Origin: Desulfobacterales bacterium
GTDB taxonomy: Bacteria; Desulfobacterota; Desulfobacteria; Desulfobacterales; JAFDDL01
Reading direction: 5' to 3'
Assembly: GCA_034003325.1 (NCBI GenBank)
Contig: JAVEYW010000007.1
Span: 62,001 to 126,000 of the forward strand
DNA: 64,000 nt
The notes under the pieces were generated by a model. The model ran no database searches. It saw only the letters and a program-made list of their open reading frames with translations, and was not told the origin of the DNA. Positions 12,524-48,360 of this stretch are shown here, piece after piece; position 1 is the stretch's first letter, and each line of letters opens with the position of its first letter. The translations under genes were made by a program, and so were the position numbers.

Positions 12524-12549
12524 GGTTTAAGTTTCCTTATATAGTAATT

Positions 12550-12661
12550 AGCTGATAGCTGATAGCTCATAGCTCATAGCTGATAGCTGATAGCTGATAG
12601 CTCATAGCTGATAGCTCATAGCTCATAGCTGATAGCTCATAGCTCATAGCTGATAGCTCAT
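12550..12661. repeat. 16-unit heptad tandem repeat (AGCTSAT)
   Basis: Sixteen uninterrupted 7-base units, eight AGCTGAT and eight AGCTCAT in mixed order, fill the intergenic space between exbB and exbD inside the operon. Arrays of the same unit occur at 25693-25783 and 36573-36621. The arrangement resembles the heptanucleotide STRR repeats known from cyanobacteria. Confidence 0.95.
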
Positions 12662-12671
12662 TGCTCTGCGC

Positions 12672-25692: not shown

Positions 25693-25783
25693 AGCTGATA
25701 GCTGATAGTTGATAGCTGATAGCTGATAGTTGATAGCTGATAGCTGATAGCTGATAGCTGATAGTTGATAGCTGATAGTTGAT
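25693..25783. repeat. 13-unit heptad tandem repeat (AGCTGAT/AGTTGAT)
   Basis: Thirteen uninterrupted 7-base units, nine AGCTGAT and four AGTTGAT, between the histidine kinase stop and the receiver gene start. Same unit as at 12550-12661. Confidence 0.95.
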
Positions 25784-25799
25784 AGCTAAAGGTTAATGG

Positions 25800-35600: not shown

Positions 35601-36598
35601 AAATCGGGTCGGTAAGCCTTCAGGACAACACGGTGCTGGCGCCCCTGGCCGGAATAACGAACCTTCCCTTTCGCCTGATGATTAAGCAGGCGGGGTGCGG
35701 ATTGGTCTGCGCGGAGATGGTGAGCGCCAATGGATTGATTTATGGCTCTCAAAAAACAGTTGCCATGTTGGCCACCGTGGCTGAAGAAAAACCCGTTTCA
35801 ATCCAGATTTTCGGGTCCGATTCATCGGCCATGGCCGAAGCGGCCCGCAGGGTCGAAAGTGCCGGGGCAACGATTCTGGATATCAATTTCGGTTGCTCCG
35901 TCAAAAAAGTCGTCAAAACAGGCGCCGGGGTGGCACTGATGAAGACACCCGAAATCGCCGAAAAAATATTGACGGCCGTCCGCCAAGCCATTACCATACC
36001 GCTGACCATCAAAATTCGGACCGGATGGGAGCCGTCCGGGCAGCAAGCCCTTGAAATCGCCCGCATTGCCGAGGGTTGTGGCGTGGACGCCATCGCCGTT
36101 CATTCACGAACCGCCACACAGGGCTTTCGCGGGACAGCGGATCGATCGATTATCCGTATGCTAAAAGCGCAAGCACGCATTCCCATCATCGGCAACGGCG
36201 ATATTCTCTGTGCTGAAGACGCCCTGTCCATGATGGCGGAGACCGGTTGCGACGGTGTAATGATCGGCCGCGCAGCCATGAACAATCCATTGATTTTTAA
36301 TCAGATTAATGCGTTATTACAAAAAAAGACGCCCCCGGAGCTTGATTTGCCGGCCCGTTTTGGCCTGATGGAATCGTATTTCACCTTATCGGTTCGGTTT
36401 TTCGGCGAGCTGCACGCCTGCCGCATGATGCGAAGTCGACTGGGCTGGTTTGTCAAAGGGCTTCATCAAAGCAGTGCCTTTCGCGAATCGATCAAGCAGC
36501 TTTCCACGAAAGCCGAAGGGTTGGCGCTGATCAGGGCGTATCGGGAGACTTTGGAGAGGTTTGCTGTTAGCTATCAGCTATCAGCTATCAGCTATTAG
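35588..36598 (+). CDS. dusB: tRNA-dihydrouridine synthase B
   Basis: 336 residues: 'VLAPLAGITNLPFRLMIKQAGC' FMN-barrel start, 'NFGCSVKKVVKTGAGVALM' with the catalytic Cys, 'IKIRTGW' and 'AVHSRTATQGFRGTAD', then 'IIGNGDILCAEDA'. It reduces specific tRNA uridines with FMN/NADPH. Odd point: the last 11 codons (AVSYQLSAISY) and the TAG stop are translated from an AGCTGAT-type heptad repeat array (36573-36621). The natural 3' end has therefore been replaced or extended by repeat sequence. The helical C-terminal domain still seems complete before it. Confidence 0.94.
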   Translation: MRQMKIGSVSLQDNTVLAPLAGITNLPFRLMIKQAGCGLVCAEMVSANGLIYGSQKTVAMLATVAEEKPVSIQIFGSDSSAMAEAARRVESAGATILDINFGCSVKKVVKTGAGVALMKTPEIAEKILTAVRQAITIPLTIKIRTGWEPSGQQALEIARIAEGCGVDAIAVHSRTATQGFRGTADRSIIRMLKAQARIPIIGNGDILCAEDALSMMAETGCDGVMIGRAAMNNPLIFNQINALLQKKTPPELDLPARFGLMESYFTLSVRFFGELHACRMMRSRLGWFVKGLHQSSAFRESIKQLSTKAEGLALIRAYRETLERFAVSYQLSAISY

Positions 36599-36621
36599 CT
36601 ATCAGCTATCAGCTATTAGCT
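36573..36621. repeat. 7-unit heptad tandem repeat at the dusB 3' end
   Basis: Units ATCAGCT x3, ATTAGCT, ATCAGCT x2, ATTAGCT, preceded by a partial unit. This is the reverse complement of the AGCTGAT units at 12550 and 25693. In the dusB frame three units (21 bases) encode SYQLSAI, and the stop TAG (36596-36598) is part of a variant unit. Confidence 0.92.
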
Positions 36622-42866: not shown

Positions 42867-43505
42867 TTAAAAACCATCAAACCTCGAATACCCCTCTAAT
42901 ATCACCCCCACCTCCTGAAGGCTTGAAATGTGAAAGTTTGCTTCAAGGGATGGATTTGCATAGGCCGCAAAAGGAACATTGGCGGCGTATGCCGCTTGGG
43001 AATCCAATTCTGAATCCCCGATAAAAAGCACTTCATAGGACGGCACGCCAAAATGATTCGACACCTTTTTCAACATGTCGGGATGCGGTTTGGGCTTATC
43101 CACATCAAGCGCACAGACCACCAGGTCGAACATTCCCTCCAGCCCGTGTTCCCGAATGACCTGCCCCATGGTGTTGGTCCGGTTGGTGGCAACAGCGGTT
43201 TTCATGTGCGGCCGCACCTTATTTAATAAGTCTCTGAGGTGGGGCTCAATTTCCATCAGCCGGATAAAATCCGTGTATCCGGTTTCTCTGCAAAAAGCCA
43301 ACGCCTGTCGCAGCATGTTGTCATCCGGAAAAAGAAGGGCCAAGGCCTCGCCAGCCGTATGCATATGCACATAGTCCAATTGTTCGGGCAACAAGCCGGG
43401 CCGGCCGAAATGATTTAACACCCTATTATAATAAGCCGTATTCGCTTTTTCCGAATCAAACATCACCCCGTCACAATCCAATGCAATAACCTTGAAACTT
43501 GCCAT
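42867..43505 (-). CDS. HAD-family hydrolase (phosphoglycolate phosphatase-like)
   Basis: 212 residues: motif 1 'VIALDCDGVMFDSE' (nucleophile Asp), cap domain, motif 2 'AVATNRT', motif 3 Lys in 'DVDKPKPHPDML' and motif 4 'LFIGDSELDSQAA'. All catalytic residues are present. Such enzymes dephosphorylate small sugar phosphates or phosphoglycolate; substrate unknown. It follows the DUF1573 selenoprotein gene with a 3-base gap, so both are probably on one transcript. Confidence 0.9.
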   Translation of the reverse strand: MASFKVIALDCDGVMFDSEKANTAYYNRVLNHFGRPGLLPEQLDYVHMHTAGEALALLFPDDNMLRQALAFCRETGYTDFIRLMEIEPHLRDLLNKVRPHMKTAVATNRTNTMGQVIREHGLEGMFDLVVCALDVDKPKPHPDMLKKVSNHFGVPSYEVLFIGDSELDSQAAYAANVPFAAYANPSLEANFHISSLQEVGVILEGYSRFDGF

Positions 43506-43508
43506 ATC

Positions 43509-44234
43509 CTATTCCTTGCGCTTATCGGTGTCGGGCTGAATCAGCCCATAAACCGGGACTTCAATTTCCGGTCGAATCTTGCTGTCGGTCACCAAATAGA
43601 GGGTGTCCAGATAACTCCCCACCTCTTTTTTGGTATTTTCCACGGTAATTTGATACGTCGAATTTTTCTGGTTTTCCACTTCTTCAAAACGGTACTGAAT
43701 ATGCTTGCCCTGTTTGGCCCGAACCGCTATCAGTTTGAGCGGATATTTTTCTTGCGTATCCAGCCTCAGCGCCTGTTTGATTTGCGTTCCGATCGTTCCC
43801 ACCAGCCGTAATCGCTTGGGCGAAAGGGCATAGAGTTTATCGATCTGACCGGTAACAATCAGTGTATGCTTCGGATTTACCGAATCATTCGTGATCACCT
43901 CGATATTCTTCCGAATCGGGCCACCGCCGCGATTGAATGTGTTTAATTTGATCGAAATCGTTCCCTCGCCGCCCGGCGGGATTCGCCGCGTAAATGCAGC
44001 GGCCGTGCACCCTCAGCCGGGCTTGACATGTTGTATCAGCAGCTCCGCGGTTCCCTTATTTTGTACAATAAAATCATGTTTGACTTCCACGCCCTCTAAT
44101 ATCGTCTCAAATTGAAATGTTTTTTCAGGAAAAACCGCTATCGGTGCCGGCGGTTCATTTTCCCGGCCGGCCGCCGTGAACGCCACAGCGACACAAAACA
44201 GCATGATTCCGATCATCCACGTTATTTTTCTCAT
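43509..44234 (-). CDS. DUF1573 selenoprotein (UGC motif, TGA at 44013-44015)
   Basis: Read as one 241-residue protein from ATG 44234 (GGGAGAGAG upstream). It has a signal peptide (ITWMIGIMLFCVAVAFTAAG) and a DUF1573 beta-sandwich. Ordinary DUF1573 proteins have a 'CGCT' motif after 'VK..'. Here the frame reads 'HVKPG-TGA-GCT' at codon 74. After the TGA the same frame continues as a good DUF1573 sequence ('RRIPPGGEGTISIKLNTF', 'EVITNDSVNPKHTLIV') to a natural stop at 43509. This is strong evidence for selenocysteine at the first Cys position (UGC). A possible bSECIS hairpin (TCCC-GCC-GGGC-GGC-GA-GGGA) lies about 38 bases after the TGA. Role probably periplasmic redox, unknown. Confidence 0.85.
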
Positions 44235-44331: not shown

Positions 44332-46824
44332 TCATAGCATATAAAGGGGGTCCACATCTACATGGATTTTAACCTGCCGGTGTGAAAAGGCGGCTGTTTT
44401 ATAAAATAGCAACCGATGAACAAAGCGATGAAGTGCCCCGACTTTTTCACATTTTAATAAAAGCTGCCAGCGGTATTGGCCGGCCACGCGAGACAATGGG
44501 GATTCAATCGGGCCGAGAACTTCTATTGCGTTAAAAACAGCGGGCTGTGCCCTTTTTTCTGCTTGACACCGCTCGCCCAGCTCACGGGCCACAGTCCGCG
44601 TCCGGTCTTTATCTTTTCCGGAAATGCGAAGCTGAATCAGGCGCGTATACGGCGGGTATTGCAACGCTTTTCGAAAACCGATTTCAAGATTGTAAAATGC
44701 GTCATAGTCCTGGTTTTTTGCGCTTAATATGCTGAAATGATTTGTATTATATGTCTGAAGAATCACTCTCCCCGGCACTTTTCCGCGCCCTGCCCTTCCG
44801 GAAACCTGCGCCAATAGCTGAAAGGTACGTTCTCCGGCGCGAAAATCGGGGAAATTCAAAGAAAGATCCGCACAGATAATTCCCACCAGGGTAATATTCG
44901 GATAGTCATGCCCCTTGGCGATCATCTGGGTACCCACCAGAATATCAATCCGGGCGGCCTTGAGATCTTTTAAAATTTTTATCAGCGCCCCCTTTCGCGC
45001 CGTCGTGTCCCGGTCCATGCGTGCCACGCGGGCCTCTGGAAACAGGCGTTTGATCGCCAGTTCCACCTTTTCCGTTCCCATTCCCAAGAGTTGAATGTGT
45101 GAAGACCCGCAGGTGGGGCAATCCGATGAGGCCGCGCGGCTGAACCCGCAAAAGTGACATTTATACAGATTGGCCCCGTGGTGATGGGTAAGAGAAATAT
45201 CACAATTTTGGCAAGTTAAGGGCGAGCCGCAGGTTTTGCAAATCGGAAAATTGGCAAACCCCCGCCGGTTTAAAAACAAAAGTGCCTGCTCCCCCCTTGC
45301 CAGGGTCTCGCGCAGGGCGGTTTGAAGCTCGGGCGTGATAAACCGATCAATGCCCTGAAGACCCTTTACTTTCTTTAAATCCACGATCGTTATCTCGGGA
45401 AGCGGCCGGTCGGCAACCCGCCTGGTCAACGAGAGTTGCCGGAATTTACCCGCGCTCACATTATAAAAAGACTGAACCGAGGGCGTGGCGGATCCCAAAA
45501 GCACCACGGCATTCAACTCCTTGGCGCGCTTGACGGCAAGATCCCGTGCATGGTAGCGCAACCCGTGCTCCTGCTTATAGGACGTATCATGCTCCTCATC
45601 CACGATGATCAAGCCCAGATCCCGAAATGGCGCGAATATGGCCGAGCGGGCACCCACCGCAATCCGCACCTGGTTTTCGGCAATCCGCCGCCATTGATCA
45701 TAATGCTCTCCGACGGATAACCCGCTATGAAGCAAGGCCACGATGTCACCGAATCGGGCGCGAAAGCGCCGCTCGGTCTGGGAAATCAGCCCGATCTCCG
45801 GCACCAGAACCAGCACTGAAACCCCCTGCCGTATTGCAGCGGCCGCCACCTGAAGGTACACCTCCGTCTTTCCGGAGCCGGTCACACCGGTCAGCAAATA
45901 GGTTGAAAACCCCTTGCCAATAGCGGCGAGGACCTCCGGAACGACCCGCGCCTGTTCATCGGTCAGCACCGGCGGCGTATCCGGCGCGATGGGCTCTCCA
46001 AAAGGATCTCTATACACGGGTTTTTGCGTCACCGTCACCACGCCGACCCTCTCCAAGGCCGGAAGGATATGCGCCGCGTTGGGCACCCGGCCGGTCACTT
46101 CATGAACAGGCATTTCACCGGCATCCCTTAGAAAATTAACAAGCTGCTCCCGTTGGGGCGTTCGGCGCAGGGCGTTCCAGGCACCATCACCGGTCAACGC
46201 CACATAGCGCGCCATGCGCTGCTGCGTATTCCCGCCCACCACCTTTTTTTTCATCACCACCAGCCCCCGATGAACCAATGACTGATAAAGCGCGTGGGGA
46301 ACATCGCACTTCAGGTGCCGCGTCATTGCCTTTAACGTGCAAGGCCCCGAGCGAAGCCGCTCAAGAATAAGTTGCTCAAGCGGGGGGGATAAGCCGTCAC
46401 CAAGGGCAGCCAGCCCTTGGGATGTAATTGAAAACAGACTGGTTTCATATAGGGTCAGCCCCCGGGGCAGGGCTGTTTGAATCACTTCCCCGATGGGATG
46501 CATATAATAATCCGCGATCCACTTATAAAAGCTTGCCATGGATGCCGGAAACAACGGCACATCATCCAGAACATCCAGTATACTTTTTATTTTCTTTTCC
46601 GGTATCGGTTTTGATGCCCCTAGAATAAAGCCGGTAACCCGCCGCTGCTGAAAGGGAACCAGCACCCGCTTGCCGGGCATAATAATAGGCGACAACGATT
46701 GGGGCACAACATAAGTAAAGGTACCGTGAACGGGCAGGGCGACACCGACTTCAATATGAGCCAAATCCGCGTGCGACGGGTTCATTTCGGGCTCAAACAC
46801 CACTTTCTTTTTTCCTTGACACAC
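44332..46824 (-). CDS. priA: primosomal helicase PriA
   Basis: 830 residues: N-terminal DNA-binding domain ('VALPVHGTFTYVVP'), winged helix, helicase with Walker A 'GVTGSGKTEVYL' and 'LIIVDEEHDTSYKQ', zinc region 'CKTCGSPLTCQNCDISL' and 'CHFCGFSRAASSDCPTCGS', and 'LVGTQMIAKGHDYPNITLV' in the C-terminal helicase half. It restarts stalled forks. A start at GTG 46803 (AAGGA 9 bases upstream) is more likely than GTG 46824. The 3' end extends to about 98 bases from the DUF1573 start. Confidence 0.95.
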   Translation of the reverse strand: MCQGKKKVVFEPEMNPSHADLAHIEVGVALPVHGTFTYVVPQSLSPIIMPGKRVLVPFQQRRVTGFILGASKPIPEKKIKSILDVLDDVPLFPASMASFYKWIADYYMHPIGEVIQTALPRGLTLYETSLFSITSQGLAALGDGLSPPLEQLILERLRSGPCTLKAMTRHLKCDVPHALYQSLVHRGLVVMKKKVVGGNTQQRMARYVALTGDGAWNALRRTPQREQLVNFLRDAGEMPVHEVTGRVPNAAHILPALERVGVVTVTQKPVYRDPFGEPIAPDTPPVLTDEQARVVPEVLAAIGKGFSTYLLTGVTGSGKTEVYLQVAAAAIRQGVSVLVLVPEIGLISQTERRFRARFGDIVALLHSGLSVGEHYDQWRRIAENQVRIAVGARSAIFAPFRDLGLIIVDEEHDTSYKQEHGLRYHARDLAVKRAKELNAVVLLGSATPSVQSFYNVSAGKFRQLSLTRRVADRPLPEITIVDLKKVKGLQGIDRFITPELQTALRETLARGEQALLFLNRRGFANFPICKTCGSPLTCQNCDISLTHHHGANLYKCHFCGFSRAASSDCPTCGSSHIQLLGMGTEKVELAIKRLFPEARVARMDRDTTARKGALIKILKDLKAARIDILVGTQMIAKGHDYPNITLVGIICADLSLNFPDFRAGERTFQLLAQVSGRAGRGKVPGRVILQTYNTNHFSILSAKNQDYDAFYNLEIGFRKALQYPPYTRLIQLRISGKDKDRTRTVARELGERCQAEKRAQPAVFNAIEVLGPIESPLSRVAGQYRWQLLLKCEKVGALHRFVHRLLFYKTAAFSHRQVKIHVDVDPLYML

Positions 46825-47220: not shown

Positions 47221-47487
47221 TGTCTTTGACTAAAATATAAACGCGCCCCGAATGCCATTCTAACCCTAAAAAACCCGGCCGGTTGGAAAATACATCAACC
47301 GGATGGACACTAACAAAGAGTGGCGCGGTAATCAACAAGCCTTGCGGTTGTACCGGATCGAGGCGGCTTATTGCTGATTCCGCCGCCTTATTCCGTCAAC
47401 AATCCTTAGCATCAATTTTTAATTTAAAGATTCAATGTGGCAGGTTCTGTTTCTATTTTTTCTGCGCTGTTAAGGAATTATAATGTC

Positions 47488-48360
47488 ATGACCCTCTCCG
47501 ATATCGAAAGACGGCGTACCGTCCGTCTAAAGCGCTCAGCACTGCTCACATCAAAGCTGGATGAAATAGACCGACCTGCCATCAAGATCGCTGAAACACC
47601 GGAAGAATACGAGCAGGCGCTCGCACTCGTATATCAGGAATATGTTCAATCGGGTTACGTCGCCAATCCGACGCCCGAAGGCAAAATCTTCAGTGTTTAT
47701 AACCTGCTCCCAGAGACGGCCGTCTTTGTCGCCAAATCTTATTTAACTGTCATCTCAACGCTTACTCAGATATTTGACAGTGAATTGTTCGGGTTGCCCA
47801 TGGACAGCATCTATCGCGAGGAGCTAAGGGGATTAAGAGAAGAAGGACGTAAAATCGTTGAGCTGGGCGCCCTGGCGACCAAGAAAGATTTCCGATGGCA
47901 AAATCTCTTCATGTACCTGTGCCAGATCATGTATTGGTACGCTCAGTATAAAAAGGTGAATGATCTTTGTATCACCATCAACCCCAAACATGTCCGCTTC
48001 TATAAAACCATTTTTCTGTTTGAAGAATACGGTCCTGAAAAACAATATCCCAAAGTAGGCGCGCCTGCCGTTTTGTTGCGGTTGAACATGGATGATATCG
48101 AACACAAGCTCAAACGGGTTTATAGCGATTTTGATTTTGATTGCAATTTATATAAATATTTTCATCGAATGAACGGCAACAAGCAGGAAAACTATGAAGA
48201 GGCTTTAAAGGGCCGAATGTCGCTAAGCGAACACGACCAACCGCGTCTTGATTCGACAACGGCACAGAAGCTAATCCATGTCAATCAAGTGGTTCTACAA
48301 AATCTTTCGCCGGCGCAAAAAAGCTTCATTCTGAAATATTACCCGGACCTTCAATTATAA
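47488..48360 (+). CDS. FeeM-like N-acyl amino acid synthase / PEP-CTERM-associated acyltransferase
   Basis: 290 residues from ATG 47488 (AAGGA 11 bases upstream; a further ATG 17 codons earlier has no conserved head). The core is GNAT/autoinducer-synthase-like: 'AETPEEYEQALALVYQEYVQSGYV', 'SLTVISTLTQIFDSELFGLPM'-like region, 'GRKIVELGALATKKDF', 'YKKVNDLCITINPKHVRFYKTIFLFEEYG'. This matches the FeeM/NasY family, which makes long-chain N-acyl amino acids from acyl-ACP and an amino acid, and the related exosortase-associated acyltransferases. It starts a cluster with HDOD and ThiF-nitroreductase genes. Confidence 0.82.
   Translation: MTLSDIERRRTVRLKRSALLTSKLDEIDRPAIKIAETPEEYEQALALVYQEYVQSGYVANPTPEGKIFSVYNLLPETAVFVAKSYLTVISTLTQIFDSELFGLPMDSIYREELRGLREEGRKIVELGALATKKDFRWQNLFMYLCQIMYWYAQYKKVNDLCITINPKHVRFYKTIFLFEEYGPEKQYPKVGAPAVLLRLNMDDIEHKLKRVYSDFDFDCNLYKYFHRMNGNKQENYEEALKGRMSLSEHDQPRLDSTTAQKLIHVNQVVLQNLSPAQKSFILKYYPDLQL

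Follow-up and report, generated by a model that had tools for sequence, protein, structure and literature searches.

A UGA-containing DUF1573 gene of a Desulfobacterales bacterium is a member of the OS_HP2 selenoprotein family with a possible periplasmic redox role

Background

A "DUF1573 domain-containing protein, UGC" is listed among the prokaryotic selenoproteins in two reviews (PMC9312934; PMC13188914), which credit the prediction of this selenocysteine (Sec, U) protein to Zhang & Gladyshev 2007, the study of the Olavius algarvensis symbionts. In the Global Ocean Sampling paper, the family is listed as OS_HP2 (pfam07610, motif UxC), and most selenoproteins with a known function are oxidoreductases (PMC2398784). 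The closest Cys-form relatives are the DUF1573 proteins of Desulfobacterales and Bacteroidota, which share the domain and the CGC motif with the protein described here and have Cys in place of Sec.

A comparison for a possible function comes from the curli accessory protein CsgC and the N-terminal domain of DsbD, both periplasmic and Ig-like in fold, with two closely spaced redox residues in a loop. In CsgC this pair is a C-x-C motif, which is redox-active on the Ig fold (−139 mV); the protein resembles the DsbD N-terminal domain, and a value of −167 mV is given for the CGC tripeptide (PMC3173608).

Here, we describe an OS_HP2 selenoprotein carried by a sulfate-reducer-type bacterium of the order Desulfobacterales and encoded in a 64,000-nucleotide stretch of DNA (the whole stretch analysed, hereafter the window). 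Clean and conserved across many genomes, the family lends itself to the question of what DUF1573 proteins do: the Sec form prevails in one bacterial order, natural Cys paralogues are present in some of the genomes concerned, and the Sec-Cys pair sits on an Ig-like fold, where known redox proteins are few.

Results and discussion

A DUF1573 reading frame with one internal TGA

The minus strand of the window, read from 44234 to 43509 with TGA translated as U, encodes 241 residues with a single internal TGA at 44015-44013. The features of the coding sequence are as follows:

43509..44234, minus strand: gene for the DUF1573 selenoprotein of the OS_HP2 family, with 241 codons followed by a TAA stop, from the translation with TGA=U and matches to NF041425 and PF07610
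44013..44015, minus strand: UGA almost certainly encoding Sec, codon 74, the U of U-G-C, with the second Cys at codon 76, from the aligned codon in 130 homologues
44169..44231, minus strand: hydrophobic helix at the N-terminus (residues 2-22), a probable signal peptide, from the model helix 2-22 and the sequence judged by eye

An earlier note, made from the letters of this DNA, had described one DUF1573 frame broken only by the TGA at 44013-44015; these coordinates are correct, and the strand, which was left unstated, is minus. A Shine-Dalgarno-like GGGAGAGAG lies ~6 bases 5' of the ATG. The context of codon 74 is ...HVKPG-U-G-C-TAAAFTRRIPPGGEG, with the motif P-G-U-G-C-T, where TGA replaces the first Cys of the CGC motif of the DUF1573 family. 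Similarity continues on both sides of the TGA, as had also been claimed, and both profile matches cross it: Pfam DUF1573 (PF07610) over residues 35-131 (74.9 bits against a gathering cut-off of 26.1 bits, profile positions 3-98 of 98) and NCBIfam NF041425 "OS_HP2 family (seleno)protein" over residues 36-131 (133.5 bits against a curated cut-off of 100 bits, E 2.6e-39). Members of this family begin the U/C-G-C motif with either Sec, from UGA, or Cys; in the window gene, TGA at codon 74 is followed by GC.

The window protein shares with OS_HP2 the Sec residue in UGC, the DUF1573 domain and a host from the Desulfobacterota; nothing essential differs from NF041425, and the C-terminal second Ig-like domain lies outside the coverage of the model. 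The window gene is an ortholog of the known OS_HP2 selenoprotein family, and no new selenoprotein family. The earlier note, which did not know the family as a characterised selenoprotein, was wrong on this point, as OS_HP2 has a model of its own and was predicted in 2007. A search for further Sec-TGA frames across the window gave no other convincing candidate.

Exchange of Sec and Cys at a single codon

The OS_HP2 protein was found in 175 of 194 genomes of relatives, mostly with exactly one internal TGA. For 130 loci out of these matches, all from the same order, the proteins were aligned and the codon at the column of the window TGA was read: it is TGA in 119 loci, TGC in nine and TGT in two, with no other codon present, a restriction well outside what chance would give. 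Cys76, two residues after the Sec column, is invariant in the 130 aligned homologues, and those bearing TGA are mostly about 35-47% identical. The column, with TGA or Cys codons only, bears out the placement of the TGA at the first Cys of CGC that had been proposed from the single sequence. Matches with TGA were also found beyond the order, within the same phylum.

Nine Sec/Cys changes are required on a quick tree with many weak branches, and three of these are forced by well-supported branches; judged by the sequences, Sec/Cys exchange is probably recurrent in OS_HP2. One locus (L047) has a Sec copy (UGC) with a Cys copy (CGC) nearby, a natural Sec/Cys comparison, and both forms also occur in the genomes G035 and G175. 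Such paired genes make the selenocysteine insertion (SECIS) signal directly testable.

A single TGA in a frame that is open elsewhere may arise through mutation, and selB is missing from the assembly (see below), which would fit a sequencing error or a decaying pseudogene in which the TGA is a nonsense mutation. However, 119 homologues have TGA at this codon and the remainder have Cys, no other stop breaks the frame, and residues typical of the family are kept on both sides of the TGA; its conservation at one column across the order refutes decay or error, to which we give hardly any probability. The codon counts (119 TGA, 11 Cys, 0 other) also dispose of a split into two genes, in line with the earlier note, which had thought both a pseudogene and two genes unlikely. 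It had named frameshifted relatives as the sign of decay, and the conserved TGA column and open frame contradict this.

Read-through of UGA in this gene would equally be expected if UGA were reassigned genome-wide, as in code 4 or 25. Yet half of the window's 30 long open frames (15) terminate at TGA, the tRNA with anticodon TCA that was found is tRNA-Sec, and TGA swaps with Cys and not with Trp or Gly. These observations already refute a reassignment, the least probable of all the explanations considered. UGA at codon 74 almost certainly encodes Sec.

Selenocysteine machinery and the missing selB

The genome encodes a tRNA-Sec with anticodon TCA, selA (616 bits) and selD (377 bits; locus L049, G000:C18:50475-51398). 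The selD gene has one in-frame TGA, and the SelD of this genome is, from its sequence, a probable selenoprotein itself. In this genome (G000), selA, selD and tRNA-Sec are on contigs among C1, C5, C13 and C18.

Among the sel genes that the earlier note had named as a check on the selenoprotein reading, tRNA-Sec, selA and selD were thus recovered, while selB is missing from the draft assembly. All matches of the genome to the SelB model are below the cut-off, IF-2-like and LepA proteins among them; the two best are 411 and 408 aa, the length of EF-Tu, and the matches inspected are translational GTPases other than SelB, LepA for example. No SelB-wing domain was found in the genome. By comparison, selB is well above the cut-off in 33 of 40 genomes searched.

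The draft consists of 46 contigs and is estimated to be 97.6% complete. A gene located next to selB in a relative (L155) was also absent when sought in this assembly, and the joint absence of the two genes suggests that both lie on one unassembled segment. The absence of selB is most likely an assembly gap. The failure to find SelB in a draft of this estimated completeness could instead mean that it was lost from the genome, in which case translation in this species would now end at the UGA after 73 residues and yield no more than a fragment. We consider such a loss very unlikely, as the genes for SelA, SelD and tRNA-Sec are all intact, expression of selD requires read-through of its own UGA, the sequence 3' of the UGA has not decayed and the absence of the flanking gene is as expected for an unassembled segment. 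Moreover, no selB was detected in the drafts of three relatives (G031, G032 and G037) that nevertheless carry TGA forms.

RNA structure after the UGA

Two hairpins are predicted directly 3' of the UGA:

43984..44001, minus strand: hairpin 1, candidate bacterial SECIS (bSECIS) element, 14-31 nt from the T of UGA, from the centroid fold
43960..43982, minus strand: hairpin 2, codons I-P-P-G-G-E-G, possible second SECIS part, about 35-53 nt from the T of UGA

Their stability was expressed as a z score against random synonymous recodings with the codon usage of the family. Both hairpins are more stable in the 119 Sec genes than in the 11 Cys genes of the same order, in which they are absent or weak: mean z is −2.39 versus −0.55 for hairpin 1 (Mann-Whitney p 1.4e-5) and −2.04 versus +0.19 for hairpin 2 (p 5.7e-8), with p-values that are optimistic because the sequences are related. 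The mean z of 285 control windows elsewhere in the genes is −0.07. That stability exceeds synonymous recoding only in the Sec genes points to a selection on RNA structure that is tied to the UGA. For the window gene alone the effect is moderate (z −1.5 for hairpin 1 and −1.3 for hairpin 2), and the single-sequence fold of its SECIS region is not exceptional.

With RNAalifold on 111 Sec sequences, only three pairs of hairpin 2 and none of hairpin 1 were recovered, probably because the stem of hairpin 1 slides between sequences. Compared with the bSECIS consensus, hairpin 1 has the right distance and a loop that starts without G, while hairpin 2 has a G in its loop, but this loop follows the UGA at about 39 nt. 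Taken singly, neither hairpin appears to fit the consensus, and a two-part SECIS signal in the TGA genes of the family is possible. An Rfam scan of the window gave no match. The selenoprotein with UGC proposed in the earlier note is thus supported by the TGA/Cys exchange, by hairpins specific to TGA genes and by the presence of tRNA-Sec, selA and selD.

Predicted fold

An AlphaFold2 model built from an alignment of 27 sequences (mean pLDDT 92.9) has a helix at residues 2-22, followed by two beta sandwiches:

43836..44144, minus strand: domain 1, residues 31-133, ASH/PapD-like Ig sandwich with U74-G75-C76, from AlphaFold2
43530..43832, minus strand: domain 2, a further Ig-like sandwich (residues 135-235) that lacks both Sec and Cys, from the model

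In this model, U74-G75-C76 is in the loop that joins strands 65-72 and 77-81. The best single-domain match of domain 1 by rmsd is the PapD-like domain of HYDIN (2e6j; Z 11.0, 1.9 Å over 99 residues), domain 2 has Ig-like fold matches over 133-238, and the protein matches Pfam PF22544 above the cut-off. The fold of domain 1 is common to the ASH (PapD-like) domains of HYDIN and CEP192, which are eukaryotic scaffold domains, and a shared fold shows no function. A sequence search of the PDB returned 2qsv alone (E 0.0004), which is from Porphyromonas and of unknown function, and this candidate was set aside, the aligned stretch being without CGC.

Redox role or metal binding

Judging by eye from its N-terminal helix, the protein most likely reaches the periplasm. 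In the mechanism that we propose, codon 74 would be decoded as Sec by SelA, SelD, tRNA-Sec and SelB, guided by a stem-loop just 3' of the UGA, and the exported product would fold into two Ig-like domains with Sec74-Gly-Cys76 on a loop of domain 1. The Sec/Cys pair would then cycle between a selenenylsulfide and a selenol/thiol, and the protein would reduce or isomerise disulfides, or else reduce peroxides, working as an Ig-fold redox protein of the kind represented by CsgC and the DsbD N-terminal domain. Taken as a whole, this reading of a functional OS_HP2 member with UGA decoded as Sec is highly probable, with Sec/Cys redox cycling as its less certain part.

A periplasmic selenol/thiol oxidoreductase is favoured as most likely because an Ig fold can host a redox-active C-x-C pair of short spacing, and metal binding is its main rival. 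For the Sec-Gly-Cys motif by itself, a catalytic redox role is rather likely, and the earlier suggestion of a strong periplasmic redox site at the Sec-Cys pair is plausible. No sequence relation of CsgC or the DsbD N-terminal domain to the OS_HP2 protein was found, and neither is among the fold matches listed; by strand count the Sec-Gly-Cys loop appears to follow the third strand in the OS_HP2 model, whereas the loop with the pair is the BC loop in CsgC. The likeness to these two proteins is an analogy of working, not membership.

Short C-x-C motifs of exported domains often bind soft metals, and ASH/PapD domains are mostly binding modules. The motif of the window protein and the fold of its domain 1 would thus also suit a periplasmic metal- or metalloid-handling Ig domain, in which UGA is still read as Sec and the Sec-Gly-Cys binds or sequesters Cu, Hg, Zn or Ni with no redox catalysis. 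In keeping with this, no redox partner gene lies beside the OS_HP2 gene, the adjoining priA and HAD-type hydrolase genes not pointing to redox chemistry. However, Sec is found mainly at catalytic redox positions, and beyond the pair itself the alignment has no strongly conserved Cys or Met and one conserved His (H53). We regard metal handling as unlikely relative to the oxidoreductase.

More tentatively still, exported ASH/PapD-fold proteins with a Sec-Gly-Cys loop might form a class of periplasmic selenol oxidoreductases with a two-hairpin SECIS in the Desulfobacterota, a generalisation that we hold to be possible though doubtful. If true, it would be a redox enzyme class built on an Ig-like instead of a thioredoxin fold.

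Gene neighbourhood

The OS_HP2 gene lies between two conserved neighbours on the same strand:

42867..43505, minus strand: HAD-type hydrolase, downstream conserved neighbour (PF13419)
44332..46824, minus strand: priA (primosomal helicase), upstream conserved neighbour (PriA domains)

With the window locus included, the HAD gene is downstream of OS_HP2 in 24 of 30 loci and priA is upstream in 21 of 30. From this conserved order (priA, OS_HP2 gene, HAD), the window holds the ortholog at its usual place.

Elsewhere in the window, a FeeM-type N-acyl amino acid synthase is encoded at 47437-48360, followed by an HDOD protein and then by one that combines ThiF and nitroreductase domains. Three tandem arrays of 7-base repeats, at 12549-12666, 25693-25787 and 36569-36621, comprise 7.6 to 16.9 copies each and have similar units (TAGCTCA, AGCTGAT and AGCTATC).
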